Of a stretch of 36,661 nucleotides of DNA, positions 3,424 through 29,625 are shown in pieces. Under the pieces are notes generated by a model. The model did not search any database. It worked only from the letters and a program-made list of their open reading frames with translations, and was not told the origin of the DNA. This DNA is from a virus: positions 1 through 36,661 of IMG/VR virus record IMGVR_UViG_3300021964_000205. The stretch is one strand, 5' to 3'. Every line of letters begins with the position of its first letter. Position 1 is the stretch's first letter. The position numbers were made by a program, and so were the translations under genes.

Positions 3424-4377
3424 TTAGAGATCTGCGTATAAGTCGTCTAGAGACGAGGAAGTTTCGGGGGCTGCAGGCTGGCTTAAACCAGGACTTGTTG
3501 TTGTTTCTGGTTGAGATCCAACTTTTGTTGAAGAAGCCTCCTTATAAATTTCATTAGAAGTGGATGTTGAAGAACTTGACGAAGATTGATTAGCACCTCC
3601 AAGTACCTCATTTACTAAACGGCCATCAGGTACAGTGTTTTTGATGATGTTCATCACACGGTCGGTAGTATTGTCGTCCCACTCTTTGTACTCAAACTGG
3701 GTTAGATTATCAGGACCCTCTTTTAGGTATTCCATAATCGTATTCATGTCAGCCTGATTTTTTTCCATCCTTTTACCGTTGATCTCAATTGGTGCTCTAT
3801 CACCAACAAATGAACAAAGGTCGTAATTATTCCACTCCCCTACTTTCCTAGTATGTACTGAAAATAGTTTACCCTCAAATAAATCGTAAGGGTTGCAAGC
3901 ATCACCATATTCTGGTTTTAGCTGTGCCTCAAGCATATCGTTTAGCTTTCTACCAAATTTGAAAACCATAATCTTACCCTCTAACTCAGGACTGTGCTTG
4001 TCTTGTACAATTTGAATTAGTGAATAATAGTCTTCTTTTCGGGAGAAGCTCCTAGCCAATTCCTGGTCTGCTGCGGAATGTGAATTCTTCAACTTCCAGA
4101 ACATGTCTTTCAAAATGGATTTTTTGCCAACTGTTGAAGGACAGTCAACTGGAAATCCATCTCCAGTGCTCGGGTCGTTTAGGTAAACGTAATACTTGTG
4201 AATTTTTGACTTTGTAGGGTCAACGTGATTGGGGAGAAAGCGGATCAGGGACTTGTAAACTCCATCCTTTCCGTTCTCCGGATATGGTTTGTAAAATTCT
4301 GTTCCCTCTGAATTCTCTTTCTTTGCTTTCGTTACGAACGCTTCTGCGTCCAAATTGAAAATGTCTAAATTGCTCAT
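3424..4377 (-). CDS. 32: Single-stranded DNA-binding protein gp32
   Basis: A 317-aa gp32 homologue (T4 gp32: 301 aa). It coats ssDNA during replication, recombination and repair and contacts polymerase, helicase loader and UvsY. The order is a basic N-terminus, an OB-fold core, a Ser/Thr-rich linker (about 265-300) and an acidic tail SSLDDLYADL that fits the protein-interaction tail of the family. The core has the typical HKYYVYLNDP and FPVDCPSTVGKKS stretch. The cysteines of the T4 zinc ribbon (C77, C87, C90) are mostly gone: only H60 and C79 remain, and the segment that usually carries C-x2-C reads SILKDMFWKL. A strong terminator follows the gene. Confidence 0.85.
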   Translation of the reverse strand: MSNLDIFNLDAEAFVTKAKKENSEGTEFYKPYPENGKDGVYKSLIRFLPNHVDPTKSKIHKYYVYLNDPSTGDGFPVDCPSTVGKKSILKDMFWKLKNSHSAADQELARSFSRKEDYYSLIQIVQDKHSPELEGKIMVFKFGRKLNDMLEAQLKPEYGDACNPYDLFEGKLFSVHTRKVGEWNNYDLCSFVGDRAPIEINGKRMEKNQADMNTIMEYLKEGPDNLTQFEYKEWDDNTTDRVMNIIKNTVPDGRLVNEVLGGANQSSSSSSTSTSNEIYKEASSTKVGSQPETTTSPGLSQPAAPETSSSLDDLYADL

Positions 4378-4417: not shown

Positions 4418-5200
4418 CTAAGTGCTCCAAAAGTTTCCCTTAGGCTTTATATATCTGTAATTTTTTTTGTTAATCTTCTCACCAACGGTCTCGACAGTCC
4501 ATACTTTCTTCCCCCTTAGGGACACTTTGAGCAGGGGTCTATCTAGGTTAAATTCAGAATTTTCGATGTGATGCCTCAACAATGTTTCGGGGTGAAAATA
4601 AACACCAGAAAGAATGTAATCTTCTAAACGATCAAACATCTTACAGTAATGTTCCATAGCATCCCTTCCTCCCCATGCAAAAACATCGTTTACCCCACCC
4701 TTCCAGTCAAATCCCGGAGGAATACAAATAGTATTTAAGTTTGGATCAAGCGGTATGTGATTGTGTATTTTTACATCCATCCTTGCCTTAATGATATAAT
4801 CATATCTCTCCCCGCTTAAATTCTCATATTCTTCCAGAAGAAGGAAGGATTGTTTTATCTTATACCACATTAAGAAAACAGAAGCAGGATTGATTTCCCC
4901 AGTTTGAGGCCCATATTCTTCATAAGACCAAGCTTTCTCAATTATATTGGAAACACCCAAGCTAGAGAACTCATCACACATTAAAGACATTGGCGAGTAT
5001 ATTGAAGCAAGTGTGTCGATTTTTAAGGTGTCATCTAAATGCTTAGAATCTGCATGAAGTGAGTTTTTAATATCACTAGAAGGATTCCAAGTGGAAATAA
5101 AAACATCGGCCTTGAATCTATCCAATATTCTTCCCTTGATGTAAGGGTAAGTATCTCTTGCTTCCCTAATTTGTCCAGGAAGTAAAAGAGCTACTTTCAT
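4418..5200 (-). CDS. Putative glycosyltransferase, last gene of the RLP cassette
   Basis: A 260-aa protein. It begins MKVALLLPGQIREARDTYPY and carries DYIIKARMDVKI (RMD at 140-142) and NDVFAWG (171-177). This resembles a group of putative GT-A-like glycosyltransferases (WavE/capsule-type proteins) found in polysaccharide clusters and viruses, where the x-D-x motif would bind metal and nucleotide sugar. The assignment rests on motif memory. Its start overlaps the stop of the phosphodiesterase gene by 4 bp (ATGA), so it is translated as part of the cassette. It would be the natural consumer of an activated sugar made by the upstream genes. Acceptor unknown: host glycan, virion protein or DNA are all possible. 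Confidence 0.6.
   Translation of the reverse strand: MKVALLLPGQIREARDTYPYIKGRILDRFKADVFISTWNPSSDIKNSLHADSKHLDDTLKIDTLASIYSPMSLMCDEFSSLGVSNIIEKAWSYEEYGPQTGEINPASVFLMWYKIKQSFLLLEEYENLSGERYDYIIKARMDVKIHNHIPLDPNLNTICIPPGFDWKGGVNDVFAWGGRDAMEHYCKMFDRLEDYILSGVYFHPETLLRHHIENSEFNLDRPLLKVSLRGKKVWTVETVGEKINKKNYRYIKPKGNFWST
4448..4455 (-). promoter_or_regulatory. GATATATA box upstream of gp32
   Basis: Minus-strand GATATATA inside the 3' end of the glycosyltransferase gene, about 70 bases before the gp32 ATG. It is the only copy I found inside a gene, and gp32 is expected to need its own promoter. Function inferred only from recurrence. Confidence 0.3.
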
Positions 5201-5637
5201 GAATACTTATAATTTTTTATATAATCTGAACAGATGCCATAACATCCGTTTACTGGATCACTATAAGATTCAGGTAAGACTGCTATACTTTTGCTAATGG
5301 GCTGATTTCCGGGAAACGCCCAAATAAATGACTTAGATGTAAGTGTTACTTTATCACTCTCATGCCAAAATACATTAAGCTCATCATATTCTTTAAGGTA
5401 CACTAAAGCTGATATGTTTTTGCAATGAACCCAGAGTTTTTCTGCCCTCTGTAGCATCCACTCTAATGAAATTTTGGAATCTGGAACATCATGTCCTAGA
5501 TAAATTGAAGAACCTGAAATCCATACATCAATTTCAACATCATACCCAAGATTAAGTGCCTCCTGAATGTAGTCTAATTTGTTTTCCCTCTCGGGTATCG
5601 GACCGTTTAAATTTCCTCTATGCGAGATCAGCTTCAT
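5197..5637 (-). CDS. Glycerophosphodiester phosphodiesterase-fold protein
   Basis: A 146-aa protein, shorter than typical GDPD enzymes (about 240 aa), that keeps the catalytic and metal-binding signature: HRG (H6, R7), EN (E18, N19), EIDV (E35, D37) and GHD (H49, D50). GDPD enzymes cleave glycerophosphodiesters into glycerol-3-phosphate and an alcohol. The C-terminal half (WVHCKNISALVYL and after) resembles short GDPD-like proteins of polysaccharide loci. The ATG at 5637 is one base after the RLP stop; a longer reading from 5721 would overlap the RLP by 83 bp and adds residues unlike the family. Coupled by ATGA to the next gene. Substrate unknown; it may act on a phosphodiester intermediate. 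Confidence 0.7.
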   Translation of the reverse strand: MKLISHRGNLNGPIPERENKLDYIQEALNLGYDVEIDVWISGSSIYLGHDVPDSKISLEWMLQRAEKLWVHCKNISALVYLKEYDELNVFWHESDKVTLTSKSFIWAFPGNQPISKSIAVLPESYSDPVNGCYGICSDYIKNYKYS

Positions 5638-5638
5638 C

Positions 5639-6874
5639 CTAAAATAATCTGTAATCCAAGTCCTTAGAAAAATCCCTTCTACCCCACTTTTCAATAGCGC
5701 AAAGGTACTCCTCACCTTCAAGCTCCCCGTTTATAGCTTGTTTCATTGCAAGACCACCAGCTCTCGTACCCATTGGGTGACCGTGCATTGCACCACCAAC
5801 ATTGGCCATCCAATCCACATTATGGATGGATTCAGTAATATATTCAACAAGACCCGGATGCATACCACAACTTAATGCAGGTACTATATTATAATGCCAT
5901 AGAACATCAAGGGTATCCTTGATTTCTTGGTCGTCTTGATTCATGTAACCACCAATCATTCCAGCATGAATAGAATCAACACCAGACCAGCCAGCAATTT
6001 TGCAAATTACAGGCCAATAGATATGGAAGGGCGCTCTTTTGTCAGTAAAGAATTTATCACCGCTTTTTTGAAAATGTATCCAAAGATCGGGGTTCTGTTT
6101 TCTGATAGCACGATACACTCCCAGACCACTCCATACATTAATATGGATTCCATTTCCCCCGTGATCAGCAACGTATTTAGCTCTTTCTAAAGCATACGGA
6201 CTATCACCATTTATACAAAAGCAATAAATGACATTCGGTGCATTTTCATTCAACCACTTTGTAATAACAGGCACACGCTCTTCAAGTGGGCAATGGCTTG
6301 GATTTCCTAAAAGCTCATCCTCTTTAATAAAGTTAACTCCTCCATATACCATTTCCTTTACAGCTTCCAGGAGAACTTCGGGGCTCATACCAACCTTTGG
6401 TTTTATTATTCCACCAAAAAAAGGTTTATCAATTACTTTATTAAACCTCCTAAAACCGTCTATCCCATAAGCAGGGGATAAGCAAAACTCATTTTCAATA
6501 ATGTCTGGGAGTTTAATATCTAATATTTGACACCTTACTATTTCTTCAATATCAACCTGTCCACCTGCTATGTGACAAAGAATTTGGGATATCCCATCTT
6601 CCTCTAAATTAAGGTTAGCAAGGGGAAAGGCAACTGATATTTCGCCTTCTTTTATATTCAATAGATCCTCTTCCTTTGATAAAACAAAGCAACTATGATC
6701 TATAAACATCTGGTCTGTTTCCCAAACACTCCTATTATTTGGATTTCCTATGCTTTGTCCTATCGCAAGATCCCAAGCTGCATGCCTTAAGGATGTTTTG
6801 GCCTCCAAAAAATATTTCACAACAAAATATCTGTTGAGATCTAGAGATTCTGGTTTAGTAAATATACTTATCAT
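5639..6874 (-). CDS. RuBisCO-like protein (RLP, form IV type)
   Basis: A 411-aa RuBisCO large-subunit homologue. Hand alignment to spinach numbering gives: IKPK (K158, K160) = K175/K177; NFIKEDE (K184, D186, E187) = carbamylated K201 with D203/E204; SIHAG (H303) = H327; SCGMH (S335, G337) = S379/G381; VGGAMHGHPMG (G360, G361) = G403/G404. So the barrel, the Mg-carbamate site and most phosphate-binding residues are kept. Residues specific to carboxylation are changed: E60 to Q, N123 to G, R295 to F and loop-6 K334 to Y (Y310). That is typical of form IV RLPs, which enolise, isomerise or decarboxylate sugar phosphates and do not fix CO2. Linked by ATGA to the cupin upstream, with 1 bp to the phosphodiesterase. 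Substrate unknown. Confidence 0.9.
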   Translation of the reverse strand: MISIFTKPESLDLNRYFVVKYFLEAKTSLRHAAWDLAIGQSIGNPNNRSVWETDQMFIDHSCFVLSKEEDLLNIKEGEISVAFPLANLNLEEDGISQILCHIAGGQVDIEEIVRCQILDIKLPDIIENEFCLSPAYGIDGFRRFNKVIDKPFFGGIIKPKVGMSPEVLLEAVKEMVYGGVNFIKEDELLGNPSHCPLEERVPVITKWLNENAPNVIYCFCINGDSPYALERAKYVADHGGNGIHINVWSGLGVYRAIRKQNPDLWIHFQKSGDKFFTDKRAPFHIYWPVICKIAGWSGVDSIHAGMIGGYMNQDDQEIKDTLDVLWHYNIVPALSCGMHPGLVEYITESIHNVDWMANVGGAMHGHPMGTRAGGLAMKQAINGELEGEEYLCAIEKWGRRDFSKDLDYRLF

Positions 6875-7194
6875 TCAACAATAAATTTATCTCCAGGGAT
6901 TGAAGGGGTCTTCACTATAAAAACCTCACAGTCTTCAAGGAATATCGGATCTGCTATCTCCCCTTTTCTAAGGATGAAAATGTCTCCAGCATTTAATTCA
7001 GTTCCCTGTATGGTCATTTTACCACTTCTTAGGAAATTTATTTCATCAGCTTCCTTGTGAAAATGTTTTGACCACTCCTCTCCTCTCAAATGCTTTTTAT
7101 AACACACTTCGAAATCTTTGGTTACAAAGGCGGATGGTGAGAAGTTACCAGCATACCAGCCTCCTTTCATATCTTCAATTTTAAATATCTCCAT
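6871..7194 (-). CDS. Small cupin-domain protein
   Basis: A 107-aa single-domain cupin. Motif 1 is complete: G38-x5-H44-x-H46-x4-E51-x6-G58. Motif 2 (G70-x7-G78) lacks the usual histidine; Ala/Asp stand near its place, so the metal site has at most three standard ligands. Cupins of this size act as sugar isomerases, epimerases, lyases or sensors. Similar small cupins (GWxxGxF near the start, PSIPxDKF near the end) occur beside nucleotidyltransferases in surface-polysaccharide loci; this is from memory. Start overlaps the nucleotidyltransferase stop by one base (TAATG) and its stop overlaps the RLP start (ATGA). Likely a partner of the RLP; the reaction is not known. Confidence 0.8.
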   Translation of the reverse strand: MEIFKIEDMKGGWYAGNFSPSAFVTKDFEVCYKKHLRGEEWSKHFHKEADEINFLRSGKMTIQGTELNAGDIFILRKGEIADPIFLEDCEVFIVKTPSIPGDKFIVE

Positions 7195-7931
7195 TATTTT
7201 ATAAGCTTTAAATAACTTTCCAAATCATCTGGGGTCCCTATAGGGAAGTGTAAGTTATAGAAGAAAGGGAGGATTTTCTTTCCCCTTTTTATAAGATAAT
7301 TATAGGTTGGAGCAACATAGAATTCGTTGTTGTACCTATCATTGGACTGTATCATTTCAATGGATGATGAAACAAAATCAGATCCTGAAGACCAAAAGTG
7401 AAGACCATTTGTTGCTATATTGGAGATTACTATTTTTTCCTTCACATCGCAAACTTCACCGTTGGGATCTAGTTTTACATAACTATTCTTCTTTGATGAG
7501 GATAGAAAACAACCCAAAAGACCATCGCATCCAGTAACATCAGCAAAGGACAGAAGTGTCTCCAGGTCAAAATCTAATATAATCTGATCGCAGTTAATAA
7601 CAATCAAAGGATCGTTATTATCTATAAGATCCTTTCCAACAAGTACAGTAGAAGCTGGTCCCTCAGTAAGTTTTGATACTGATAAAATGTTATAGTCGAT
7701 ATCCATATCAGAGATAGATTTTTCAAAATCACCCACTGGAAACATCTCCTCATTAACTATGAATATAAAATGAGCGCTTTCGTGATAAAGGTTTTTTATC
7801 ACAGCTCTTATCATATACTCACCGTTTACGTCGATAAAAGGTTTGGGTTTCTCATACCCAGCATCAGCAAATCTTTTACCAGCACCACCTAACGGTATTA
7901 AAATATTAATCTTTTTTGCTAATCGAGTCAT
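7194..7931 (-). CDS. Sugar-phosphate nucleotidyltransferase
   Basis: A 245-aa protein with an NTP-transferase (Rossmann-like) fold. It has the signature GGAGKRF (15-21), EKPKPFIDVNG (27-37), GPAST (91-95) and NCDQ (113-116) with the metal-binding Asp. Enzymes of this family join a sugar-1-phosphate or similar phosphate to an NTP and release pyrophosphate. The sugar and base cannot be read from sequence. The C-terminus (FPIGTPDDLESYLKLI) is usual for the family. I set the start at the ATG at 7931, inside the RuvC-like gene (26-bp overlap); the start at 7961 adds MTQLGYVCFC, which looks unlike the family. First gene of the carbohydrate cassette. Confidence 0.85.
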   Translation of the reverse strand: MTRLAKKINILIPLGGAGKRFADAGYEKPKPFIDVNGEYMIRAVIKNLYHESAHFIFIVNEEMFPVGDFEKSISDMDIDYNILSVSKLTEGPASTVLVGKDLIDNNDPLIVINCDQIILDFDLETLLSFADVTGCDGLLGCFLSSSKKNSYVKLDPNGEVCDVKEKIVISNIATNGLHFWSSGSDFVSSSIEMIQSNDRYNNEFYVAPTYNYLIKRGKKILPFFYNLHFPIGTPDDLESYLKLIK

Positions 7932-8580
7932 ACAAAAACAAACATATCCAAGTTGCGTCAATGATATCGTCGAGAGGCTTGTTTACATTACCAGAACCAG
8001 TAATCCACTCTCCCTTATTTTCATCCAGTATACTAGTAAAGGATCCCAAGTTAGTTTCTGGAAACTCCCTCTCAATAAGAGAATTGTAGAGTTCGTGTTT
8101 TTTTGCATTTCCTTTATACGCAAATTTTTTGACAGAGGTTGGTGAATAAACATAGAAGTTTTCGCTTCCTGTGTGATCAACAATCTTTTTTCTGAGAAGA
8201 GCGGTAGCCATCGAAATATCAATAAGTGCATTGCCATTAGAAGCAAAACTTAAGCCCTCCATAGCAACAATAATGTCATCACCTGCACAAATGCTTTCAA
8301 TCTCTACCCAGAACTCATCAACAAGTTGCTGGAAATAATCTATCTTTATTCTTTCCCTTTCCGAATACTCCTCTGGCATTTTATCCTTACCCATAAACAT
8401 AAGAACATAATGGTCTGCCCCAGATTCTGAAAGTATGTGATAAGGTTTCTTTGTATTTTTCTTAAGAGATTCCTCTGTTCTATCACTCCGGGTTAAAGAT
8501 CCCCAGGTAAACTCATTTTCTCTCAAAATACAAAATGCGGGTGAATTAAGCGAAAAGTCTATTCCGACTAATGTTTTCAA
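7906..8580 (-). CDS. RuvC-like Holliday-junction nuclease
   Basis: A 224-aa protein with an RNase H-fold RuvC core. Acidic residues are at the expected places: GIDFS (D8), MEGLSF (E108) and PLDDIIDA (D204, D205, D208). SPTSVKKFAYKGNAKKHEL (146-164) is the basic strand-helix segment preceding the last motif in RuvC proteins. T4 itself uses gp49 (endonuclease VII), so a RuvC-fold enzyme would replace it for resolving branched DNA before packaging. The start is TTG at 8580, giving MKTLVGIDF, directly at the first beta strand; no ATG fits. Its 3' end carries the start of the nucleotidyltransferase gene. Confidence 0.8.
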   Translation of the reverse strand: MKTLVGIDFSLNSPAFCILRENEFTWGSLTRSDRTEESLKKNTKKPYHILSESGADHYVLMFMGKDKMPEEYSERERIKIDYFQQLVDEFWVEIESICAGDDIIVAMEGLSFASNGNALIDISMATALLRKKIVDHTGSENFYVYSPTSVKKFAYKGNAKKHELYNSLIEREFPETNLGSFTSILDENKGEWITGSGNVNKPLDDIIDATWICLFLYDSISKKD

Positions 8581-13394: not shown

Positions 13395-14981
13395 TTAAAA
13401 TCCTCCAAAGACTCCACCACCCCCTCCAGGTCCACTGCCTGTATCAACAGCAAGCGTGTATGTAATCCATCCACACTTGTAATTATCGTCAGAGAACGCC
13501 TGGTAATGTAATCTTTCACTTACTGTTGATGGGAAAAATGTAATCCTGATGTGCTGACAACCAGCTGTTCCAGCACCATTATCACTGATATAAACTTTTG
13601 CTGGTGACCCAACTCCTGATGCCTGAACAATTCTGATGCCACCAAAGGAATAGTTTGTACTATTCAGGAAGAAGTCGAAGGTTCTTGATTCAACCCCACC
13701 ACCGAAAGTTTCGGTAACCCAAGAAAAATTGTTTCCCAATGAAAGTAAAACCCTATCTGGATTAGAACCTACAGCCGGACTTCCTGAAGGTGGTGGTGTA
13801 ATCACACAGACGTCGTTTGTTGGGCTTCCACCTAAGACATAACTATCTGTCCCATCAGATAAAAAGTTTACAGAACTTGTGGTTATACCCTTTACTATTT
13901 TAAGCCCAGTAGCACCAACTGATCCGAAGGTAAATCTGTTTTGCCTACTGGCTGTGATAAGACTCTGATCGGTAGTGTTTAATATCTGAAGAAAATCGTC
14001 AGCTGTTTCGCTGGCTGACTGTAACTTCACACCGTCGCCAGAACCAGAAAGACTTGCCAAAGGAATATAAGGTGTGACCGGAGCAGCAATATAGCCTGTT
14101 CCGCCTGGGATTGAAATAGTAACATTGAAATCTGATGAACTTAAATTCACCAAACTAGAGGTAAAACTTAGGGATGATGAAGTAGAGATAGCAAAAGCTC
14201 CACTGGTTCCAGTGGCTGCAGTAAACGTTGTAGTACTTTGCGAAGAACCAACTACGCTGCTAGTTGTCGATGACAAGGACATAGTTCCACCGGTAGCAGA
14301 ATATGTTGACGAAATCCCACTTTGTAATCTTATTTCATCAGGAAAATGCCATCTGTGGTTGTATGAGGCACCAGTTTGGGTCCACTTAAAAGAAACTATG
14401 TTTCCGGGAGATTGTGTTAAAAAAGTCTTTGCGAACCCAACAATCGGGAAATCTGCAGTTTGAGAAGTATCAGTAGAAACCATCACTTTAGAAAAGTTAG
14501 GATTCATTGATGATGTAGCACCAACAGCATCAGAAAGCACCAGATCCTTGTTGCTTTGGTCACCATTTATATAAATAGCATTGTTTGAAGATGCGTTACC
14601 AGGACCAGAGATGCCAGTAATCGTTGAAAACACACCAGAAGATAAAAGAGTTTGCCCGCTGTCTATCCAAGAACCAGATGTGTATTTGTAAACCTGCTGA
14701 CCTCCAGTAACCCCTATATTAATCCAAATGTCACCCTCTTGGGAAACTGAAGAAATAGGCTCGGTTGTGGAAAAGAACCACTCAGCAGCTCTTTCACCTG
14801 TTGCTCCTGGAATTCCATCCCTTCCTGCCTGGCCTCTTATTCCAGTAGCTCCAACGTTACCTAATGGACCTTTCTCACCAACGCCATTGAAGAAGACCTC
14901 ATAAAAATTATGATTGATCTTATTAAGGATTGTGTCCTTATCATCACCAGGTAATATGTATTTTGTATTAAAGTCTGCCAT
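13395..14981 (-). CDS. Collagen-repeat tail fibre protein A
   Basis: A 528-aa fibre-like protein. The N-terminus (ILPGDDKDTILNKINHNFYEVFF) matches a module also at the start of the next gene and of the 296-aa fibre gene; it probably anchors the fibre. A collagen-like stretch of Gly-x-y triplets (GEKGPLGNVGATGIRGQAGR and on, about 37-66) follows. A conserved EPxxxxxxGDxWIN...YKYTSGSWIDSGQ module comes next, then a long Ser/Thr/Gly-rich region and a distinct C-terminal domain ending GSGPGGGGGVFGGF. Paralogue of the following gene. Receptor binding is a plausible role. Confidence 0.82.
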   Translation of the reverse strand: MADFNTKYILPGDDKDTILNKINHNFYEVFFNGVGEKGPLGNVGATGIRGQAGRDGIPGATGERAAEWFFSTTEPISSVSQEGDIWINIGVTGGQQVYKYTSGSWIDSGQTLLSSGVFSTITGISGPGNASSNNAIYINGDQSNKDLVLSDAVGATSSMNPNFSKVMVSTDTSQTADFPIVGFAKTFLTQSPGNIVSFKWTQTGASYNHRWHFPDEIRLQSGISSTYSATGGTMSLSSTTSSVVGSSQSTTTFTAATGTSGAFAISTSSSLSFTSSLVNLSSSDFNVTISIPGGTGYIAAPVTPYIPLASLSGSGDGVKLQSASETADDFLQILNTTDQSLITASRQNRFTFGSVGATGLKIVKGITTSSVNFLSDGTDSYVLGGSPTNDVCVITPPPSGSPAVGSNPDRVLLSLGNNFSWVTETFGGGVESRTFDFFLNSTNYSFGGIRIVQASGVGSPAKVYISDNGAGTAGCQHIRITFFPSTVSERLHYQAFSDDNYKCGWITYTLAVDTGSGPGGGGGVFGGF

Positions 14982-14989
14982 TTCTTAAA

Positions 14990-16522
14990 TTAGAATAGAG
15001 TTCCACATTCACCCGAACATGTCGAATAATAGCACTTATATGTCGAACCTATCTTCATATGAGTAACCTCTACCATGCTAGCCGGTGTACTAAATTCGGT
15101 AAATGATGAAGGTGGTCCCCCCTGAAACTGCGCAATACCATTAATGAGTTTTCCATTGGCAGCATAATAATTCAAGGTAATAGATTCGTTATTAGAAAGC
15201 CATTCCCCCCAATTGGTTGCATTATTAGTAACATTGTCTATGTATATTACACGCTTATTGGATGTTGTCCAATTAGCATACATATTGTTACCAGGTCCAA
15301 AGTCATATATCGTAACAAATGAACTGTGTGTACCGGAAACTGGTCCATAACACCAAAGATCACAATTAACTCCCAAGGGGGATAAAGTGGACGTTAAACT
15401 ACGACCAGTACCAGAGGGACCATCATCCGACGGAGTACTACTAGCAGTATTATTTGTAGCATTAACTTGCCTTTGAAATTTAACTTTACCATCATTTCTA
15501 ACACTAAATCTCTCCGTGTTTGCGCTTAGAAGCCTCAACAGATAATAAGAAGTACTTGTGGATGTTGATTGTACTTTAAGCGTGTCACCACTTCCGTTGC
15601 TTAAAAGACTTAAAAGAGGTGATTGAGAAGTAACTCCACTAATAGTTAATGGCACGTTCAAAGCTAATAACGAAGAAGTTAAATTAAACTTTTGAGAAGC
15701 AAAAGTCATCAAAGAGGTTCCAGAATTAAATGACATTGCACCGGTAGAGGTAAAAGTCATTTGATCGCCAGAGGTAATATTGAGACCACCATTTCCCAAA
15801 AGATTTAAAGTTGAAGATGTCGATTGTATGGACATACTTCCACCAGATCTCACCTCGAGATCATCCTGGGGAACCGAAAAAAGCAAATCATAATTGCTAC
15901 CAGATGGATCTATCCACCTAAACTGTGGGTGTCTGTTATAATCGGCAGGAGTTCCAATTCCACTAACGTTAGTTTTTGAAAACTCCATTATAGGGTAATC
16001 GTTGCTACCATTTGAGGAGATCAGAAACTTAGCGTATGTTGGGTTTATTGTTGATGTAGCTGCAGCGGAATCACTGATAACAAGAGTATTTAGCTCCGGA
16101 AAGGGGCTGCTTATAACAATAGCATTTTTGTTACCTGTTGGACCAGAAACTCCAGATACTAGTTCAAAAACCTCAGAGGCTTTTAGGTTTTGCCCGCTAT
16201 CGACCCACCCGGAATCTGTATATTCAAATATCGAATTATTTGCAAGAGTTTGTACCCAGTAATCACCAACTCTGATAGGGTCGCTAGAACCTCCAGTTGG
16301 CTCTGCACCCTGTACAAACCACTTAGTACCGCGAAGACCTTCCTGACCAGGATCACCTTTAGGTCCAGCAGGTCCAATTGCTCCCTGTTCTCCTTGTTCA
16401 CCTTGTTCACCTTGCGGTCCACCCCCAGCTAAAACAACAGAATCAAAGTTAGCATTAACCTTTTCTCTAATCGTCTCCTGAGAATCTCCAGCATTCAGGG
16501 CTTGTATGTTTAGATTTGGCAT
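14990..16522 (-). CDS. Collagen-repeat tail fibre protein B
   Basis: A 510-aa paralogue of the 528-aa fibre: the same N-terminal GDSQETIREKVNANF module, Gly-x-y triplets (GPQGEQGEQGEQGAIGPAGP and on), GDYWVQ...FEYTDSGWVDSGQ, SGPTGNKNAI and SDSAAATSTINP. The C-terminal third differs and ends in a Cys-rich tail YKCYYSTCSGECGTLF, so the receptor-facing tip has diverged. Only 8 bp separates it from the paralogue downstream, consistent with tandem duplication followed by divergence at the tips. Four closely spaced cysteines could form disulfides or bind metal. Confidence 0.82.
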   Translation of the reverse strand: MPNLNIQALNAGDSQETIREKVNANFDSVVLAGGGPQGEQGEQGEQGAIGPAGPKGDPGQEGLRGTKWFVQGAEPTGGSSDPIRVGDYWVQTLANNSIFEYTDSGWVDSGQNLKASEVFELVSGVSGPTGNKNAIVISSPFPELNTLVISDSAAATSTINPTYAKFLISSNGSNDYPIMEFSKTNVSGIGTPADYNRHPQFRWIDPSGSNYDLLFSVPQDDLEVRSGGSMSIQSTSSTLNLLGNGGLNITSGDQMTFTSTGAMSFNSGTSLMTFASQKFNLTSSLLALNVPLTISGVTSQSPLLSLLSNGSGDTLKVQSTSTSTSYYLLRLLSANTERFSVRNDGKVKFQRQVNATNNTASSTPSDDGPSGTGRSLTSTLSPLGVNCDLWCYGPVSGTHSSFVTIYDFGPGNNMYANWTTSNKRVIYIDNVTNNATNWGEWLSNNESITLNYYAANGKLINGIAQFQGGPPSSFTEFSTPASMVEVTHMKIGSTYKCYYSTCSGECGTLF

Positions 16523-16566
16523 TTTATTATTTTATCTTTGTTTATATATTCTAAGGTTCCAATCCC

Positions 16567-19500
16567 CTATATTTTTTCAATCTGGAAATTAAACGTGGTT
16601 GAATAATTCTTACCAGATTCTAAAGGCAATTCAAACGTATATGATAATGCGTTTCTTTTCGTAAGTTTGTAGTTTGGTTCTAAGTTATATGAATATCTTA
16701 TTCTATCTGGGCTAGTTAAGTCACCCCTTAGGAGTAATTCTGTTGAAGTTAAATTGGTACCAGTTTTCTTAACAAATAGATCGAAGGTGATGCCCTGGTA
16801 AATAGGTACCACGTTTTTATCAATATATGTCTTGATATCATCGTTGATATTTTCAGGATCCCCTACCCCAAATTCGCTAATTATATTTTCAACAAACACA
16901 TTACTAATACCAGCATTTAAAAGATATCTCCTAAGAATTCTGTCTAACCTAATAGATCCATAAAGAGTATTAGTTCTCTCGTCCTTTTGCCAGAAAACTT
17001 CTACGTCCGGGAAAATACCTTCATCAAAACTAGGAAGATCTAAGTTGGAAAGAACTGTACCCAATTGGCCTATTCCAGTGTTCGACGTTTGAGGGGTAAT
17101 ACTCTGGATAGCACTAAGGGCTTTTTTAGCAGCCAAGTTTATTTTTTGTATATCAGTTTCGCCAGTTGTTCTATTAACCTCCAAAGTTATAAATGTATAG
17201 GTAGTTATAGTATAAGGCGTCTGCATCATTTTAGAACCAAAGAAAGATTTGTTCTCTCTCATGGATCTTGTTCCAGCTACTGGAGAATTTTGAGTTGCAG
17301 AGGTGTAAAGGTTAAAGTATCCAGGATCCCACGTTGAAAGAAATATGGATAAGTCCTTTTTGGCTATTGGTGTTTCCCCAACAAGTGGATATACTGCACC
17401 AAGAGGCAAATTAGCAGACTTCTCTAGAATATTTTTTCCTAAAGAAACCTTACTGTAGTTAAGGTTGGCTATTTTACCAAAGCCAATTTTACTTGGAGCA
17501 AATGTACAGTTCCTATAAACCAAGTCAGCGGAAGGATATCCGGTTATGGTATCCGTTTTATCATTTTTAAACCTCATCACTTTTTTGAATAAAGGCTCGT
17601 ATTTTCCAGCATATCTTAAAATATCAGCAGCATATGTTAACCCGCCAACATTAATCTGGTAACCGGTAGGCTCATTCTGCCCAAGTGTTTGTGGTCCTGA
17701 ATAATCTGCTACTGGGAATGTCCCATTTGGTCTATATAGGGCAGTTGGTTGCTGCATATAAATCTGGAAATAATCACTTCTTACCTCCGTAGATTGTGTA
17801 TCTTCATTCCAGGAATAAGTTTTATACTTAACAAAAGGACTCTCGTTGTTTACCCTATCTGATATCTGAGAAAGTGAAATCCTTCTCATTATAAAATCAA
17901 AGTATTTTTCGCCACCTTCTATCTGGAAAACTGGATTACCCGCATAAGCACTTCTAGGTCCAACAGGTACCGTTACAGGTGAGGAGAAAGCGAAGGGTAT
18001 AGTAAAAGTATAGTTTGTATCGACTGGACCAAAAGAAACGAGATTGTTCGATCTGCCAACCGGCCACGGATATGTTGATGCTATTGCAGGAACACTGAAG
18101 CTACCTTTACCGGTTGGGGAAAGAGTTGCCTTCGCACCAGTCGGATAAATTGTATTTATTTCCTCCCTTAGATCCGTGTCATACTCAGAATTCGTTATTG
18201 TGTAGATAAAACCAGGATTGGTAAATTGTGTTACAGAACTACCAGAAACCATTGACAGGTTTAGGGCAGTACTTAGTTTTATGTCATCAATCTCATAAAG
18301 CGGCGAACCGGTTGCTCCAGTTGAACCGGTAGCACCAACACCAGCATCTTTTTTCTTATCGCTTAGGCTATAAAGCAAGGTATAATCTACATAAGGAGTG
18401 CCTCCAGTTCCTCCAGTGTATCCAAGAGGCAAAGCCCTATAATCTTTAATTACAATGCTGCACACAAAGAGAATGCATTTTTGTTGTGTATTTTCTATAA
18501 ATTCATAGGAAACTGGGGGTTGGATAGTGTTACTAGTTTCTGGAACTACTCTCAAGATGGAAGCAAACTTATAATCTTGGAAACCTCTAAAATTGGGAAC
18601 GTATTTTTCAAGATCACTTTGTGGATTAGCAACAGTACTTCTTCTTCTCAAAGAAACCTTTGCACCTCTAAAAACAGTATCATAAAATCCGGTAGACTGG
18701 TTGTACGTAAAAGGAGTAAACAGCTCCTTCGTAGTATTACTGGAAATATTATAAGGGCTAGGATAATCTAAAGGATCTACAGTAAAGAAATTAGAGAAGT
18801 AAAGACTATCGTTTGGATCTGCGCTTCTTACCTTAGAAATATCTATTTTTCCAGGGAGATAATTATTTTGGCTTTCAATACTATCTGATGGGTACCCGTC
18901 AGGAACACCCTCTAAAAGCATCCACTCGTGTGTGAGATACATTGGATCTGGTATCTCCTTCTGAAAACTTGGAGAAAAATTGGTAGGACTGAAAGCCGCA
19001 GATGCATTAAGTCTATAAGCATTTCCCCTTGCATCAGTACCTCCAAAATACCCCCATTTATTAATGAAAGGAACTATCTTAGATCTATTAGCCCTAGATG
19101 TTGTATAATTTTCTTCCAGGTATTCATACTCAGTATCTAACTTACCATATTGGAATAAAAATTGCTTAGTATTGGATTGAGATACCGATTGGGTTTCGTT
19201 TATGGACTGTATTCCATAAAATCCATCAAAGGAATCCAAATTTTCCTCGAATTTAATTGACTTTTGGTTGTATATTTCATTTGCATCCTTCCATCCAATT
19301 TGAGTAAATATAGCAGGAACTACAATAGATTCTACGCTAGTGGTTGTGGATGCTATATCCTCAAAATAGCTCACCGAGGTGCCAATAAATGCACCGCCAG
19401 CGGAAATAGTTCTCTCAGTTCCAGTGCCTATATCAACTCGGATTTCCCCGCTCTGAACAAAGTATTTAACACCCTGCTTAATTTGTCCATTGGTTTCAGG

Positions 19501-22098
19501 TAAAAGCTGAAAGTACCTATGGAATTCTTGTGTAGGGGTTTCCCCATAGTTTGATGACCAAAAATCAAAATCAAAATCCTTTATATCAAAGAAAGAAAAT
19601 ACCCCCGTTGAAACTTTGGGCATCTCATATAAGTTAAAAGACTGACTTGTTCCAAGGTTTATTTTTGCTTTTTGATCCTTGAGGTTAGCAACCAAAAGCT
19701 CCTCATACCCTCTGAACCCAGTGACCTTACCATTAGCATCTAATACTGGATCATCTACATACCTTGTAACACTCTCTACCATAGAGACACCACCAGTAAT
19801 TCCGCTTCCTGAGGTAACCTCAATATATGTTCCAGGTTCTACTTTGTTAATTTCTTTAATATCAAATGAAACCCTAGATAGCGGGTAGTCAGTTCCGCCG
19901 CTAAAAGTAGTTATGCCATTAATTTCCGTTGCATCCACACCAGCTATACTAATAAGTCCACTGGTAGTAAATGTTGAGTATGAATTCCAGTTGGAGGTGT
20001 CAAGAGAAGGATCTATATTTTCAGAACCTGGTGTTGCAGCTGGAATGTTATTTAGTGCTTCATAGTAAAGATTACTACTTACAACTATATCGCCGGCGGA
20101 ATATCCAGAAGTGTTATTCCATACACCAACATATGAGGATTCAAACAATTGATAGTCTTCATAAACTGCTAATCTATATTCGGAATTTACCTTACTACCG
20201 CTTGCTTTAACCTTTATAACTGAGGTGGACTGTACTGGTGCACTATTCCAAACAACGTCACTTATTGATGTAATACAATCACAGAATGCAGATGCAACAT
20301 CATTTGTTGTCCCGTCGATAGCATTAAAAAAGTGCTCATTGCCAATGTTATATGAGGATCCACTATTCCACCCAACAAGAGTTCCTGCAAATTCCCCGCT
20401 TTTTATAAAATCATATCTACCAGCGGATTCAGATCTTGTGCCATTTGGCCAAAAAAGCTTAAAAACAATTTCATTGTCAAGCGGTTCTGTTTTCAAGAAC
20501 TTAACTCCAATATTTGGATTTCCTTTAGAATTAGGTAAGGTACCTTTTATGGAACCTATCTTATCACCATAACCAGTAAAGTTCTGGAGATTAACAGACT
20601 GATTACCAATAACAATAGACCCTGTACTCAAACTAGTATTTCCAGTTACGCCAAAGTAACTACCATTGTAAGGACCATATTTTGCATATTCTGGAGTGTT
20701 GTTTAACCAGGTCTTAGTATTTGAATCATAATTTTCATATCTTTTGAGTGAATAAAAATTATCGCTTTTATCAGTAATATAATATAGTTTCTGAGGATCG
20801 TTTACGTTAGTGTCATATGATCCTGGTACCCAGCCTGAAGCACTTTCGTAAAATAATCTAACCCCACCTGTACTACTTTGGAAATTTGGTTTGTTGTCCT
20901 CATAGTGGCCAACATTATTTCTTGATGGTTTTGGTAAGTTAAGGTTAAAAGGACTGTTTTTAAAGCCATAGAAATAGTCACCATTCAAAAAGAATTCACC
21001 AAGATCATTTTTCGAAACATAAAATCCAAAATATCTGTTAATCGTATATAAGCTAGAATCAGGATCATTGAAAAGGAATTCCATATTGAGAACGTTCGAA
21101 CACACAACGCCGTTTCTTTGGAATCCGTCAGTTACGTAGTTTTCAAAGTCAGATTGAATGGAAGATCCAGGACTAACAAGATAATCATAAAGTAACTCGC
21201 CCCTCTGTGTGAATACACCATCTTTTAAACCAGCTCCATTGTAATAGGTGTAAGTGTTTTGTTGGAACGAAAAGTCAATCGGGGATTGCTTATAATTTTT
21301 GTCATTAACAATGCCTCTAATGTATTTTCCTATTTGGGTTTCTGACCTAAGGTCAAATGTTGCAATAACGCTGGCATTTGGTAAGACTTTGCTATTGAAA
21401 AAAGTATCTACGTCATCAACCTGTGGTTGAAATTTCAGTTCATTCATTTCAACTACCTTACCAGTTCCACTTACTATCCTGTAGGTGTTAAAAAGATCTA
21501 ATCCAGTAAAAATATCGTCAGCAGAATAAAATATGTCCTGACCACTATTATCTTTGCCATAGGCAATTTTAAAGTCTTCTGTAGAATTTGGATCCTGTAT
21601 TAACTTGTAGCTAATGTTGGTTCTTATTGAAGTAACATTAGTGGTGTAAGGATAGCTTACAGGATCGGGAACCTTAAATATCACAAAAAATTCAGGGAGC
21701 TCGTCCCTTAACCATAACGGCTGGAAAAATCTAAAATTCTCAGTGTAATTCTTATCTATTAGGGTAGATGCCCCGCTACCATAAAAGAAATCATACTGAA
21801 ACTCAAAATCCTCCTGTGCCTTTGAACTACCGTCGGTAAATTCACCAACCTGGAAAATCAAGTCGTTTGGTACAGTGCCTTTATCAAAGAAGTTATAAAG
21901 ATCAGTTGCGTAAGAATCCTTTCCAGTTACCTGAAACTTTTTAAACCTCTGGGAGCTAAGGGTTGGATTAGCATTAAAAGAATTTAGCCAAACACCACCA
22001 GAAGAATCGAGGGACACTTTTACATTTCCAGTAAGTTTAGGGTTAGTTCTAAGTAGTCCAAATGATGAATTGTAATCGAATAATTTTGGTGCAGCCAT
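16567..22098 (-). CDS. Giant virion structural protein (1843 aa), probable baseplate or tail component
   Basis: The largest gene of the window. It begins MAAPKLFDYNSSFGLLRTNP, then KVSLDSSGGVWLNSF. The whole is beta-rich with many aromatic residues, Asn/Ser/Gly loops and no long coiled coil, so it is not a tape-measure protein. A short Gly-rich stretch GVGATGSTGATGSP interrupts the middle. The C-terminal part (DEGIFPDVEVFWQKDERTN... to the end NYSTTFNFQIEKI) looks like a separate domain. It sits among baseplate/fibre genes and starts 26 bp after the stop of the 1182-aa gene. I cannot match it to a T4 protein; large baseplate wedge (gp7/gp10-like) or peripheral ring functions are the main options. 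Confidence 0.78.
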   Translation of the reverse strand: MAAPKLFDYNSSFGLLRTNPKLTGNVKVSLDSSGGVWLNSFNANPTLSSQRFKKFQVTGKDSYATDLYNFFDKGTVPNDLIFQVGEFTDGSSKAQEDFEFQYDFFYGSGASTLIDKNYTENFRFFQPLWLRDELPEFFVIFKVPDPVSYPYTTNVTSIRTNISYKLIQDPNSTEDFKIAYGKDNSGQDIFYSADDIFTGLDLFNTYRIVSGTGKVVEMNELKFQPQVDDVDTFFNSKVLPNASVIATFDLRSETQIGKYIRGIVNDKNYKQSPIDFSFQQNTYTYYNGAGLKDGVFTQRGELLYDYLVSPGSSIQSDFENYVTDGFQRNGVVCSNVLNMEFLFNDPDSSLYTINRYFGFYVSKNDLGEFFLNGDYFYGFKNSPFNLNLPKPSRNNVGHYEDNKPNFQSSTGGVRLFYESASGWVPGSYDTNVNDPQKLYYITDKSDNFYSLKRYENYDSNTKTWLNNTPEYAKYGPYNGSYFGVTGNTSLSTGSIVIGNQSVNLQNFTGYGDKIGSIKGTLPNSKGNPNIGVKFLKTEPLDNEIVFKLFWPNGTRSESAGRYDFIKSGEFAGTLVGWNSGSSYNIGNEHFFNAIDGTTNDVASAFCDCITSISDVVWNSAPVQSTSVIKVKASGSKVNSEYRLAVYEDYQLFESSYVGVWNNTSGYSAGDIVVSSNLYYEALNNIPAATPGSENIDPSLDTSNWNSYSTFTTSGLISIAGVDATEINGITTFSGGTDYPLSRVSFDIKEINKVEPGTYIEVTSGSGITGGVSMVESVTRYVDDPVLDANGKVTGFRGYEELLVANLKDQKAKINLGTSQSFNLYEMPKVSTGVFSFFDIKDFDFDFWSSNYGETPTQEFHRYFQLLPETNGQIKQGVKYFVQSGEIRVDIGTGTERTISAGGAFIGTSVSYFEDIASTTTSVESIVVPAIFTQIGWKDANEIYNQKSIKFEENLDSFDGFYGIQSINETQSVSQSNTKQFLFQYGKLDTEYEYLEENYTTSRANRSKIVPFINKWGYFGGTDARGNAYRLNASAAFSPTNFSPSFQKEIPDPMYLTHEWMLLEGVPDGYPSDSIESQNNYLPGKIDISKVRSADPNDSLYFSNFFTVDPLDYPSPYNISSNTTKELFTPFTYNQSTGFYDTVFRGAKVSLRRRSTVANPQSDLEKYVPNFRGFQDYKFASILRVVPETSNTIQPPVSYEFIENTQQKCILFVCSIVIKDYRALPLGYTGGTGGTPYVDYTLLYSLSDKKKDAGVGATGSTGATGSPLYEIDDIKLSTALNLSMVSGSSVTQFTNPGFIYTITNSEYDTDLREEINTIYPTGAKATLSPTGKGSFSVPAIASTYPWPVGRSNNLVSFGPVDTNYTFTIPFAFSSPVTVPVGPRSAYAGNPVFQIEGGEKYFDFIMRRISLSQISDRVNNESPFVKYKTYSWNEDTQSTEVRSDYFQIYMQQPTALYRPNGTFPVADYSGPQTLGQNEPTGYQINVGGLTYAADILRYAGKYEPLFKKVMRFKNDKTDTITGYPSADLVYRNCTFAPSKIGFGKIANLNYSKVSLGKNILEKSANLPLGAVYPLVGETPIAKKDLSIFLSTWDPGYFNLYTSATQNSPVAGTRSMRENKSFFGSKMMQTPYTITTYTFITLEVNRTTGETDIQKINLAAKKALSAIQSITPQTSNTGIGQLGTVLSNLDLPSFDEGIFPDVEVFWQKDERTNTLYGSIRLDRILRRYLLNAGISNVFVENIISEFGVGDPENINDDIKTYIDKNVVPIYQGITFDLFVKKTGTNLTSTELLLRGDLTSPDRIRYSYNLEPNYKLTKRNALSYTFELPLESGKNYSTTFNFQIEKI

Positions 22099-22124
22099 CT
22101 ATATTTTTATTCCTTTATTCTTAA

Positions 22125-25100
22125 TCACACATTCCTAGTCGTCGACGAGAAGTTAGGTGCTGAAAGAGTATCATTTTTGTATTTACCAGTAACCTGAACA
22201 TCGAAGGAGAATGGGCTCTGATTTCTAACCTGTATATCTATCCCGACTTTTTTAGTGTATGTAACGTTGGTTGGGTTTCCATCAGATCTAAATCCACCAA
22301 TATATCCTAACTTATCGTTTGCCCTAAATTGGAATATTAAAGGAATGTTTATAGCATTTGAATCACCATTCTTAACAAACTTTGAAGCCAATTGTGTTGA
22401 ACCCTCAACTTGAATAGATGAAGCCGTAGGTGGACCTAGGAAAAGATAAGAGCCACAAGTATACCTTCCGACCAAATATTCATCATTAACTGTAAATCCT
22501 AATTTATTCGGGTACATATCATCCTCTCTGGAAGCAGTAGCTCCCTGTACAAAATCAACACTTACCTGTTGGTAGGAAAGTTGTTTGTAGTTATCTTGGA
22601 CGTTTGTATCCATATAGAAATAATCAGAGTGCCTGAAATATGGATAAACTACCACTCCTCCAGAAAAGTCAGGCTTAACTAAACTAGTAAATGATAGGCC
22701 AGTAGATAGATCAGGGTGATCTTTGTGGATACAGAATTCGCTAAGTGTACCGTTACCAACACCACTGTAGCTTCCAGTAGCACCCGTAAGCACACCACTC
22801 CAAATATTAGCGTTTACACCAGAAGCTGTTGGTACTGAAGAATTTGTTGGATCGTATGGTAATAACTGACTTCCGTTTCTTGGAAGTCCGCTTGAATCAC
22901 CAGCATATGAATACGATCCGGAAAAAGCTGAATTAACAACATATAAATCAACATCAAGACCAACTGATTTCCACCTCGGATAAATAAATTGGCTGTTAGA
23001 GTTTCCGGAAGCATATGGGGGTGCTTGTCTAAACTCTTTGAATGAATTATCGTTAGCACCACCGGTAGATCCAACGGGGATAATATCAGAAGTTGTTAAA
23101 GATGTAATGGATATTGGAATTTCACCATACCTAAGATTAGTTGAATACCCGTCTGGCAATGAGTAAGTAGAGCTTGTTCCAGCTAATGTGGTTAAGCCTC
23201 CAGGTAAAATAGAAGCTAACTCGAGCATACCTGCCGATGTATTACTCACCTTTATCTCGTAAACTGTGGATGCTATTTTACCTGCATCACTTGTGGCAGC
23301 ATTAGCGTAAATTTGGTTAAAATATCCAGCATTTAGATTTATTGTAGATCCATTAGCAACCAATTGGGTATTTGTGCCATCTACAATATAAACCTCCAGT
23401 ATACCTGTTGCATTTTCTACTGTTGCTTTTAAGGAATTAAGCTGATCTTGTAATTCGGTGAGCTTTTGGAAAAGATCCAAAGGATTTCCCGCAGAATCAT
23501 AATATCCGCTCATTATGGAATTTGTCCCGAGATAAAATGTCTTTTGACCAGTGACTACCTGTTGGCTTAGCAAGCCATCAATACCTTTAGAAGCTAGATC
23601 CTGCTGTATTGCAAGGATAGCCTCGTCTTTTAAATTAGTACTTACGCTCTCAGCTGTACTCTGTGTAGAAAGATCGTCAGGGAAGGTAACTACTACAGGA
23701 TCTGAGAATTCAGAAGTAACCGGATTGTCTGGCCAGCCAGCTTCAGAAACAGATTTGATTCTAATCTCAACCCTTTCACCCTTGGTAATCGGTATATCAA
23801 GCTGATTAATATTAGTTGCATCAGCATTATCTGTATCCTCTGGTGCCCAAACATAAGTACCAGTATTTGGGTCATAAACCTTTTTCCTGAGCTCCGATTT
23901 TATTTCAATCCAATTTGAGAATGCACCACTTTTTTCTTGTCCATTCTCATCAATATATCCTATTTGCTGTACAGCCGGAGCAGCCCCTGCTTCTGATAAA
24001 TATCTATACTGTATAATAAACTGTACAACGCTTTGATCTCCAGTGATTGAACTGTTTTTTGGAAATGGTATGGGCCAAAAACCTCTTACTCTATATTTTG
24101 GCTCGACCTTAAGTTGAGTGTTTGTTTCTGATATTGTTGTAATATCATTTACAACAGAAGACAAAAGTTGCTGCTTCTGGACCCTTTGTTGCGTTAAAGA
24201 ATTCAAAGAAGCCAAAACAGCACTTGAATTTTGGCTATCCGATTGAACCGATGTTGATACAGCACTTGATAACGAAGCAGGCAAAACACTTGTCGAAGAA
24301 ACCGAATTTAGATCAGTTCTAGTTTTTGAAATTGAATTATCTAGCTGTTGTATTTCAGATTGCAAGGTTGATTTCAATGAAACCTTATCGTTCAGTGTTT
24401 GTACATCAGTTCCCTCTGTTAGTTGTGTATTAACTTGGACAACCTTAAAATTAGAAGAAGAAACTTCAGGTACCTCCGGAACTAATCCATTGATTGCATT
24501 TACTTTTTTCTCCTTTGCCATCCCAAGGAAAATCTGTCCGAGATCAGCAACAGAAGTTAAGTAAAATTGTTCAAGGGTTTGTACACCAGCATCAGTATTT
24601 ACGGTTAATTCGTTGCTAAACAAAACTACTCCAGTCGACCAGGTAGAACCAACAACGTTATAATTGTCATCTATCTGCTTAAAGAAAATTCCTTGCCTTT
24701 CATCAAATCCTACATTTACCTCAATTAATCTTGGGGTAAGCTGATTTGATTCAAGGGTGAGCTGATTATCACCAATTTGTACTGGCTGGTAACCCGAACT
24801 TCTTTTTAGCTGAACTGAGGTTTCCTCAACATTTACACTGGTTATGGTGTACCTAGTTCCGTCGGGGGTTAATAAGGTGTCACCTTTTGATAAGGTTCTA
24901 CCGTCGGTGACGTTTGAAGCTGTATCTGTATAATTTACACCATCAAGTTTATAGTTTCTCCTAGTTTCCTGAACTTGATTACCATTAGAATCCGTAATTG
25001 TAACCACATCATCATAGAAAGATAAAACACCGAATGTACCTTTATTTCTAATAGATCTAAGTGGCAAATCGATAGTATCTTCATCAACAAAATAGTCAAT

Positions 25101-25673: not shown

Positions 25674-25689
25674 TTTATTTTATAAAATT

Positions 25690-28872: not shown

Positions 28873-29625
28873 ATGCCAATAGAAGAAGGCGAACTTATTA
28901 AGATAAGAAAAACTGAGAAAAATAACAGGTTGCCAATAATTATGTGCACCTGGAAAAGGACCGAAGGATTTTTAAAGGTCATAGACCAATTAAACCAACA
29001 GAATTTTCAAGATTTTCACCTTTACGTATGGAACAACAACCCAGAACTGTCCGAGCAATTCCAGGAAATAGCTGATGTCAATTGCAAATTTCCATGTACA
29101 ATGTTCCACAGCAAAAAAAATATTGGCGGTTTCGGAAGGTTCTACTTTGCAAGGTATATCTTAGATAAAGATATGCACCACGGACACTGTATCTTCATAG
29201 ATGATGACCAAACTTTTGAAAAAGACTCGCTTGAAATCTTTTTAAATGAAGCAAAACCAAAGCAAATTTCTTCGCAATGGGCTTGGAAAATAAAAACACT
29301 AGATTATTATGGAAAAGCTAACCGCATAGAAGTAAATGGGGGTGATGAAGTAGATTATTGCGGTACTGGCGGTATGGTGTGCGATATTAACATATTTTCA
29401 GAGGACAAGCTTTTTGAATGCCCAGAAGGGTATTGGTTTATAGAGGATCTTTGGTTATCATTCTTTGCAAACCATTATCATGGATATGCTTTAAAAAAGA
29501 GCTCAGCAAAATTTAAAAACGGAAGTGACCAACACAACCTCTTTGATAAAATAAAACACCTCAAGAGTCCTATGTTAAAGGATCTTGTGGACAACTATGG
29601 GTGGAAAATCACCTTCAACAAATAA
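28873..29625 (+). CDS. GT-A type glycosyltransferase
   Basis: A 250-aa family-2-like glycosyltransferase. Visible are the N-terminal strand RLPIIMCTWKRTEGFLKVID (19-38), VWNNNPE (52-58), the loop NIGGFGRFYFARYIL (83-97), and FIDDDQTF with the metal-binding DDD at 110-112. It would transfer a sugar from a nucleotide donor; donor and acceptor are unknown. No membrane segment is seen, so it is cytoplasmic. I chose the ATG at 28873; the upstream TTG at 28822 adds residues outside the fold. Its 3' end overlaps the start of phoH by 29 bp. With the gene at 4418-5200 this gives the window two distinct glycosyltransferase candidates, encoded on opposite strands. Confidence 0.78.
   Translation: MPIEEGELIKIRKTEKNNRLPIIMCTWKRTEGFLKVIDQLNQQNFQDFHLYVWNNNPELSEQFQEIADVNCKFPCTMFHSKKNIGGFGRFYFARYILDKDMHHGHCIFIDDDQTFEKDSLEIFLNEAKPKQISSQWAWKIKTLDYYGKANRIEVNGGDEVDYCGTGGMVCDINIFSEDKLFECPEGYWFIEDLWLSFFANHYHGYALKKSSAKFKNGSDQHNLFDKIKHLKSPMLKDLVDNYGWKITFNK

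Follow-up and report, generated by a model that had tools for sequence, protein, structure and literature searches.

A RuBisCO-like protein in a recurrent, mainly phage-borne gene cassette, and its proposed role in making a nucleotide-activated sugar

The stretch of DNA analysed here (the window) is the whole of IMG/VR record IMGVR_UViG_3300021964_000205. It is 36,661 bases long and is probably a fragment of a genome. The T4-like core genes in it are a UvsW-type helicase, a primase, gp32, a RuvC-like resolvase and a tail tube gene. Between the RuvC-like gene and gp32, positions 4418-7931 are filled by a cassette of five minus-strand open reading frames (ORFs), one of which encodes a RuBisCO-like protein (RLP). 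Neighbouring cassette genes abut or overlap by 1-4 nt. An earlier note, made from these letters alone, had named the five genes and their positions; the ORFs proved exact, and the families were borne out by Pfam, PHROG or structure models. The cassette and its two flanking genes, both phage core genes outside it, are as follows.

7194-7931, minus strand: sugar-phosphate nucleotidyltransferase (NTP), 245 aa, ATG start at 7931; phrog_3980 family
6871-7194, minus strand: small cupin, 107 aa; 1 nt overlap with the NTP gene
5639-6874, minus strand: RLP, 411 aa; 4 nt overlap with the cupin gene
5197-5634, minus strand: mini-GDPD, a compact barrel, 145 aa; ATG start at 5634
4418-5200, minus strand: GT-A fold glycosyltransferase (GT), GT6-like by structure, 260 aa; 4 nt overlap with the GDPD gene
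7906-8580, minus strand: RuvC-like resolvase, upstream flank (phrog_159, 8.6e-16)
3424-4377, minus strand: gp32-like single-stranded DNA-binding protein, downstream flank (PF08804, 1.5e-11; phrog_224, 9.9e-33)

The gene set was found again in many other contigs. Dropping RLPs that were ≥90% identical left 54 non-redundant loci, and in 41 of these NTP, cupin and RLP are contiguous, commonly with overlapping reading frames. The NTP lies within three genes of the RLP in 47/54 loci and the mini-GDPD in 42/54, while the cupin lies within two genes in 47/54. Recurrence on this scale rules out chance adjacency. Moreover, position -4 of the RLP loci is occupied by 38 different gene clusters over 53 loci, and the linkage therefore does not merely reflect the shared ancestry of long stretches. 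Independent metagenomes contributed 10 further non-redundant contigs with the order RuvC-NTP-cupin-RLP-GDPD-GT-gp32-primase, making the site between RuvC and gp32 common to eleven contigs with the window included. A chimeric contig is ruled out by the identical layout in independent assemblies. Purifying selection acts on the cassette genes; for the RLP, compared between the window and locus L003, nonsynonymous divergence (dN) is 0.09 and synonymous divergence (dS) is saturated.

Recurrence of the RLP-cupin-NTP trio had been set beforehand as a check in the earlier note, and the trio was found both in the 41 loci and in cellular genomes. The same note had named two outcomes that would count against its proposal: an RLP beside unrelated genes in all relatives, and a cassette lying at a chimeric joint. 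Neither was observed, as NTP, cupin and GDPD partners recur and the RuvC-to-primase order is repeated in the 10 other contigs.

At other sites the neighbours assigned by Pfam are O-methyltransferases, NAD-dependent epimerases/dehydratases, GT2, FkbM and DegT proteins, UDP-glucose dehydrogenase, UDP-GlcNAc 2-epimerase, sulfotransferase and acetyltransferase. Both the module and its glycan context are well supported. Cellular copies show related arrangements. The order is NTP-cupin-RLP-GDPD in Crocinitomicaceae and in an alphaproteobacterium, and GDPD-NTP-RLP at two kinds of site in SAR11 genomes; in Elusimicrobia and Nanoarchaeia the RLP has an NTP adjacent or next-but-one. Overall, the RLP is paired with NTP or GDPD in SAR11, Patescibacteria, Elusimicrobia and DPANN members, and a full-length GDPD adjoins it in a Verrucomicrobiia metagenome-assembled genome. 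Four of the SAR11 copies (L090, L091, L094 and L095, with the order GDPD-NTP-RLP-NTP) have a thyX-like gene alongside and hflKC-like genes further on, which looks like one chromosomal site shared by several strains. In L023 (8113-8946) a transaldolase/FSA-like protein is encoded between a small HAD gene and the cassette NTP, and the same was seen in L026 and L029.

The first cassette gene matches Pfam NTP_transferase (PF00483) at 6.9e-12 and 45.9 bits (cut-off 21.2), phrog_3980 at 2.9e-55 and the solved pyrophosphorylase PDB 4evw at 9.3e-15. It has the GxGxRF and KP motifs, and G16, G18, R20 and K30 are invariant among its homologues. By Pfam and motifs, its product is classed as a sugar-phosphate nucleotidyltransferase. 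For the cupin, Pfam gives a weak match (Cupin_7, 0.0027, under the cut-off) and PHROG a match to phrog_24762 at 1.3e-31. The protein has cupin motif 1 (GX5HXHX4EX6G) without a mismatch, and the metal-motif residues His44, His46 and Glu51 show no variation across 45 homologues.

The RLP matches Pfam RuBisCO_large at 2.7e-34. It was aligned to solved RuBisCOs, and residue conservation was judged across 41 diverse homologues; the spinach RuBisCO positions in brackets are those we take to correspond. The metal site is kept as K184 (K201, the carbamylated lysine), D186 (D203) and E187 (E204), all invariant in the family. The enolising base is kept as K158 (K175), also invariant, and K160 (K177), H303 (H327), S335 (S379), G337 (G381) and G360/G361 (G403/G404) are retained. 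The changed positions are those required for carboxylation or phosphate binding. Loop-6 K334 is replaced by Y310, E60 by G39, N123 by G105 and H294 by Q269, each replacement being invariant in the family, while T65 is replaced by N44, W66 by P45 and R295 by K270 with conserved replacements. This residue pattern fits an enzyme predicted to enolise and to be unable to carboxylate. Because Lys334, Glu60, Asn123 and His294 are missing, CO2 fixation by the RLP is judged very unlikely.

Curated models gave a similar picture. The RLP falls below the RuBisCO cut-offs (161 of 497 bits for form III, TIGR03326; 139 of 438 for PRK04208; 92 of 489 for PRK13475), below those of the methionine salvage enolase MtnW (118 of 409 for PRK09549; 90 of 513.6 for TIGR03332) and below that of the OiaX decarboxylase (119 of 700). 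By its residues and homology it is placed in form IV as generally defined, with RuBisCO-superfamily homology and an incomplete carboxylase active site. It shares with other form IV RLPs (MtnW/YkrW, OiaX and the RLPs beside four-carbon acid sugar kinases) the RuBisCO fold, the carbamate and metal residues, the Lys175-type base and the loss of carboxylation residues. It differs from them in forming a separate clade, in occurring mostly in phages and in having a context of glycan biosynthesis rather than salvage or catabolism.

The family is distinct. Its members scored 338-690 bits against the family profile (fragments about 304), whereas every other RuBisCO or RLP scored ≤221. In a midpoint-rooted tree, built without the MtnW, IV-Photo, IV-NonPhoto, IV-AMC and marine environmental clades, the family is one clade with support 100 that excludes OiaX-type RLPs as well as archaeal and Candidate Phyla Radiation forms. 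Cellular lineages branch early in this tree, and phage sequences are nested among them. At least 80 loci with the RLP were found in IMG/VR, and none of 50,697 GenBank phage records gave a match. The T4 major capsid protein gp23 was found on 14 of 25 large RLP contigs compared with 0/14 control genomes, and these are therefore genuine phage genomes. Cellular copies are rare: a restricted pattern scan detected them in 19/84,980 genomes, and a SAR11 family sample in 2/297. Samples of Pseudomonadota and Patescibacteria yielded no family member beyond the seed genome. The clade is thus housed mostly in T4-like phages and is sparse in SAR11, Patescibacteria and archaea.

Pfam gave no match for the last two cassette genes, and a PDB sequence search returned nothing for the GT and weak GDPD matches for the mini-GDPD. 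With sequence searches nearly empty, structure models were required. The AlphaFold model of the mini-GDPD (predicted local distance difference test score, pLDDT, 97.5) is a compact barrel with few helices, whose best structural matches are mostly GDPDs (1vd6, Foldseek probability 0.99). Superposition on 1vd6 gave a Z score of 10.2 and a root-mean-square deviation of 3.0 over 137 of 145 residues. The catalytic pattern HR...EN...ExD...GH is present; H5, R6, N18, E34, D36 and H48 are invariant in 49 homologues and E17 is conserved in >90%. At 145 aa the protein falls short of the usual GDPD domain of about 220-250 aa, and the model suggests that it may be near the minimal (beta/alpha) barrel enzyme. 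The GT matches phrog_13607 at 2.5e-21. Its model (pLDDT 88.5) matched GT-A enzymes, with 193 PDB matches at E ≤0.001 in Foldseek, GT6 and glycogenin first and a GT6 enzyme on top (4cj8, 3.8e-7). A nearly invariant R140-x-D142 takes the place of the DxD metal site, and the GT6 enzyme 4ayl is titled metal-independent.

Versions of the cassette that lack the RLP bear on its likely function. The NTP, cupin and GDPD genes occur in cultured Synechococcus phages that have no RLP. Two of these, Bellamy and SynMITS9220M01, encode an NTP fused to the ribose-5-phosphate isomerase RpiB (Pfam 3.9e-32 in Bellamy); the cupin gene comes next, and GT and GDPD genes lie nearby. A scan with the NTP-RpiB fusion recovered 30 IMG/VR loci, nearly all with NTP-RpiB, cupin and GDPD, and none with an RLP. 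Conversely, the fusion is found in 0 of the 25 large RLP contigs, 2 of which have a stand-alone RpiB. Among the loci compared, L019 is the sole RLP locus with RpiB; there RpiB is encoded by a gene of its own, and the locus has neither NTP nor cupin. In Synechococcus phage S-SKS1 (L107, 7001-8428) the NTP is in turn fused to RibB, 3,4-dihydroxy-2-butanone-4-phosphate synthase. RibB acts on ribulose-5-phosphate, and an enediol(ate) intermediate of a ketopentose phosphate is common to the mechanisms of RpiB, RibB and RuBisCO. On the simplest view, whichever enzyme holds the RLP or RpiB slot makes a sugar phosphate ready for the NTP.

In cyanophages, RpiB clearly takes the place of the RLP, though it is not the sole alternative. 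Among the 80 cupin loci nearest to the window cupin, 65 have an RLP at ≤4 kb, a count from a query that favours such cupins. Most of the 15 RLP-less loci have NTP-HAD fusions and one (L178) has NTP-RpiB, which rules out RpiB as the only substitute.

Further fusions were observed. NTP-RpiB fusions with cupin and GDPD occur at L104 (8835-9992), L363 (4835-5992) and L333-L362, and in Synechococcus phages such fusions are labelled 'phosphatase' in GenBank, at odds with the Pfam result. The S-SKS1 fusion adjoins a SIS isomerase and a transaldolase. Very commonly, viral contigs encode a second NTP subfamily with an N-terminally fused HAD_2 phosphatase (e.g. L011, 8304-9677), and a different HAD is fused C-terminally to the NTP in L059, L145 and L171.

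Because of their contiguity, their glycan neighbours, the kept enolisation residues of the RLP and the RpiB and RibB fusions, the cassette genes are read as one sugar-activating module. We consider it fairly probable that this module, carried by phages and now and then by cells, serves to make and use an unusual nucleotide-activated sugar, with the RLP as a non-carboxylating isomerase or enolase. A more specific version is offered tentatively, as somewhat short of probable: that the RLP clade is a mainly viral branch of the RuBisCO superfamily devoted to a nucleotide-activated, probably ketose-derived, surface-glycan sugar, and acts as a sugar-phosphate isomerase that replaces RpiB in one conserved operon.

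A possible sequence of steps can be outlined. With carbamylated K184 and Mg2+ held by D186 and E187, K158 of the RLP would take a proton from a host ketose phosphate, the likeliest substrate being an intermediate of the pentose phosphate pathway. The enediolate would be reprotonated at another position to give an isomer or epimer, with no carboxylation. The NTP would then activate this product. The cupin would probably isomerise or epimerise the sugar before or after activation, and the mini-GDPD may trim or transesterify a phosphodiester on the pathway. Finally, the GT-A enzyme would put the sugar on a glycan, possibly assisted by O-methyltransferases in other phages. The acceptor would most likely be a host surface polysaccharide, which could bar competing phages, or else the virion. 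The NTP step has a precedent in Campylobacter, where a capsule NTP acts directly on a ketose phosphate to make CDP-6-fructose from fructose-6-phosphate (PMC10918830), and cyanophage lipopolysaccharide (LPS) clusters have been proposed to alter the host surface against rival phages (PMC7824862). The earlier note had suggested that a sugar phosphate is remodelled, activated and attached to an acceptor. That outline fits the glycan-gene neighbourhood and the RpiB substitution; the activity and benefit of the cassette, and its substrate, nucleotide and acceptor, are what we infer from them. Its mention of DNA among the acceptors was not upheld, as nothing points to DNA.

Several observations weigh against this interpretation. 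About one-fifth of the nearest cupin loci have no RLP and mostly have NTP-HAD instead; some version of the pathway can therefore do without RLP chemistry. The replacement between RpiB and RLP amounts to only 1-2 changes on the cupin tree; with so few events, the substitution is a strong lead and not proof. The RpiB and RLP cassettes may also make different sugars, in which case the replacement would not be like-for-like. In addition, the mini-GDPD is missing near the RLP in about one-fifth of loci, and the roles given to cupin and GDPD are guesses from fold.

Other functions for the RLP were weighed against that of a sugar-phosphate isomerase. It might be an OiaX-like decarboxylase or enolase of a sugar-acid phosphate, with the cassette product derived from a keto-acid phosphate. 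Plasmid-borne RLPs are known to act on, or sit with, sugar-acid genes, and they share the fold and the retained metal site with the phage protein. We regard this as unlikely, since the tree sets the phage clade well apart from OiaX and related RLPs, the OiaX model score lies far below its cut-off, no acid-sugar kinase was seen adjoining the phage RLP in the neighbour tables, and an aldose-ketose isomerase, RpiB, can occupy the slot. That the RLP is a genuine or impaired RuBisCO, fixing CO2 for phage or host as an auxiliary metabolic gene, is scarcely credible. The Pfam RuBisCO_large match and the tabulation of viral rbcL calls from landfill and IMG/VR as CO2 fixation in one study (PMC12607003) speak for it. 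This function was rejected on residues and model scores: Lys334, Glu60, Asn123, His294, Arg295, Thr65 and Trp66 are all replaced by family-conserved residues, the form III score is about a third of its cut-off, and neither phosphoribulokinase nor another Calvin-cycle gene is among the neighbour families shown.

The destination of the sugar and the unity of the cassette can also be questioned. T4-like phages are known for DNA glucosylation, and in the T4-like group the cassette is inserted amid replication genes (RuvC-like, gp32, primase), as might be expected if the sugar were placed on phage DNA or nucleotides as hypermodified bases. In 40/54 non-redundant loci, however, the cassette lies at other places amid polysaccharide-type genes, cellular copies adjoin epimerase, glycosyltransferase and DegT genes, and the cassette GT resembles GT6, a family acting on oligosaccharides; a DNA acceptor is therefore highly improbable. 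It is rather doubtful that the genes are linked merely as interchangeable cargo of glycan islands, with RLP and NTP in separate pathways. Such islands swap genes freely, and gene order varies in one-quarter of loci. Against this stand the overlapping-frame contiguity in 41/54 loci with differing flanks and the pairing of NTP with RLP across unrelated bacterial and archaeal lineages.

Several known systems resemble parts of the proposed sugar-activating module. T4-like cyanophages P-SSM2, S-SM2 and S-SSM7 carry LPS/carbohydrate clusters with epimerases, glycosyltransferases, cupins, NTPs, HAD phosphatases and SIS isomerases (PMC3037559, PMC7824862). With its nucleotide-sugar and glycosyltransferase genes, the RLP cassette on T4-like phages is a cluster of this kind. 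Bellamy and SynMITS9220M01 share NTP, cupin, GDPD and GT with the window and differ in their RpiB-NTP fusion and lack of an RLP. The D-fructose-6-phosphate cytidylyltransferase of C. jejuni HS:5 (PMC10918830), likened to the phage NTP by description, is also a capsule NTP that activates a ketose phosphate; unlike the phage NTP, it has no RLP, cupin or GDPD partner described. Viral 'rbcL' calls in the landfill study are, as here, RuBisCO-large homologues on viral contigs. The likeness is by annotation; the accessible part of that study reports one call clustering with 'RbcL-like' proteins and does not give the gene neighbourhood (PMC12607003).

A literature search, with most subscription papers outside its reach, returned no account of the cassette or of a RuBisCO homologue in glycan biosynthesis. 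Glycan islands in phages have been described before, as have RuBisCO relatives that do not fix CO2; the RLP clade with its gene context appears new. The statement in the earlier note that no such phage system had been described stands for the RLP; the RLP-less set of NTP, cupin, GDPD and GT was already present, unremarked, in sequenced cyanophages with known LPS clusters. The proposal would give a RuBisCO homologue a part in glycan biosynthesis, which the literature searched does not describe, and warns that such viral 'rbcL' genes should not be counted as carbon fixation. It also offers a small cassette of four to five enzymes whose reaction should be within reach of ordinary enzymology, and the RpiB version from cultured Synechococcus phages serves as its built-in control. 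Moreover, the clade may account for part of the 65 RuBisCO homologues outside known clades in the ocean GOS set (PMC1821046).

Elsewhere in the window, positions 13395-27072 hold large ORFs of up to 1843 aa. Two ORFs in this region, of 528 and 460 aa, had no match in a PHROG scan and are probably tail or virion proteins of a divergent T4-like phage. A PhoH-like protein is encoded on the plus strand at 29585-30271, within a structural region otherwise on the minus strand. The nearest relative of the window helicase is from a 462-kb uncultured phage.

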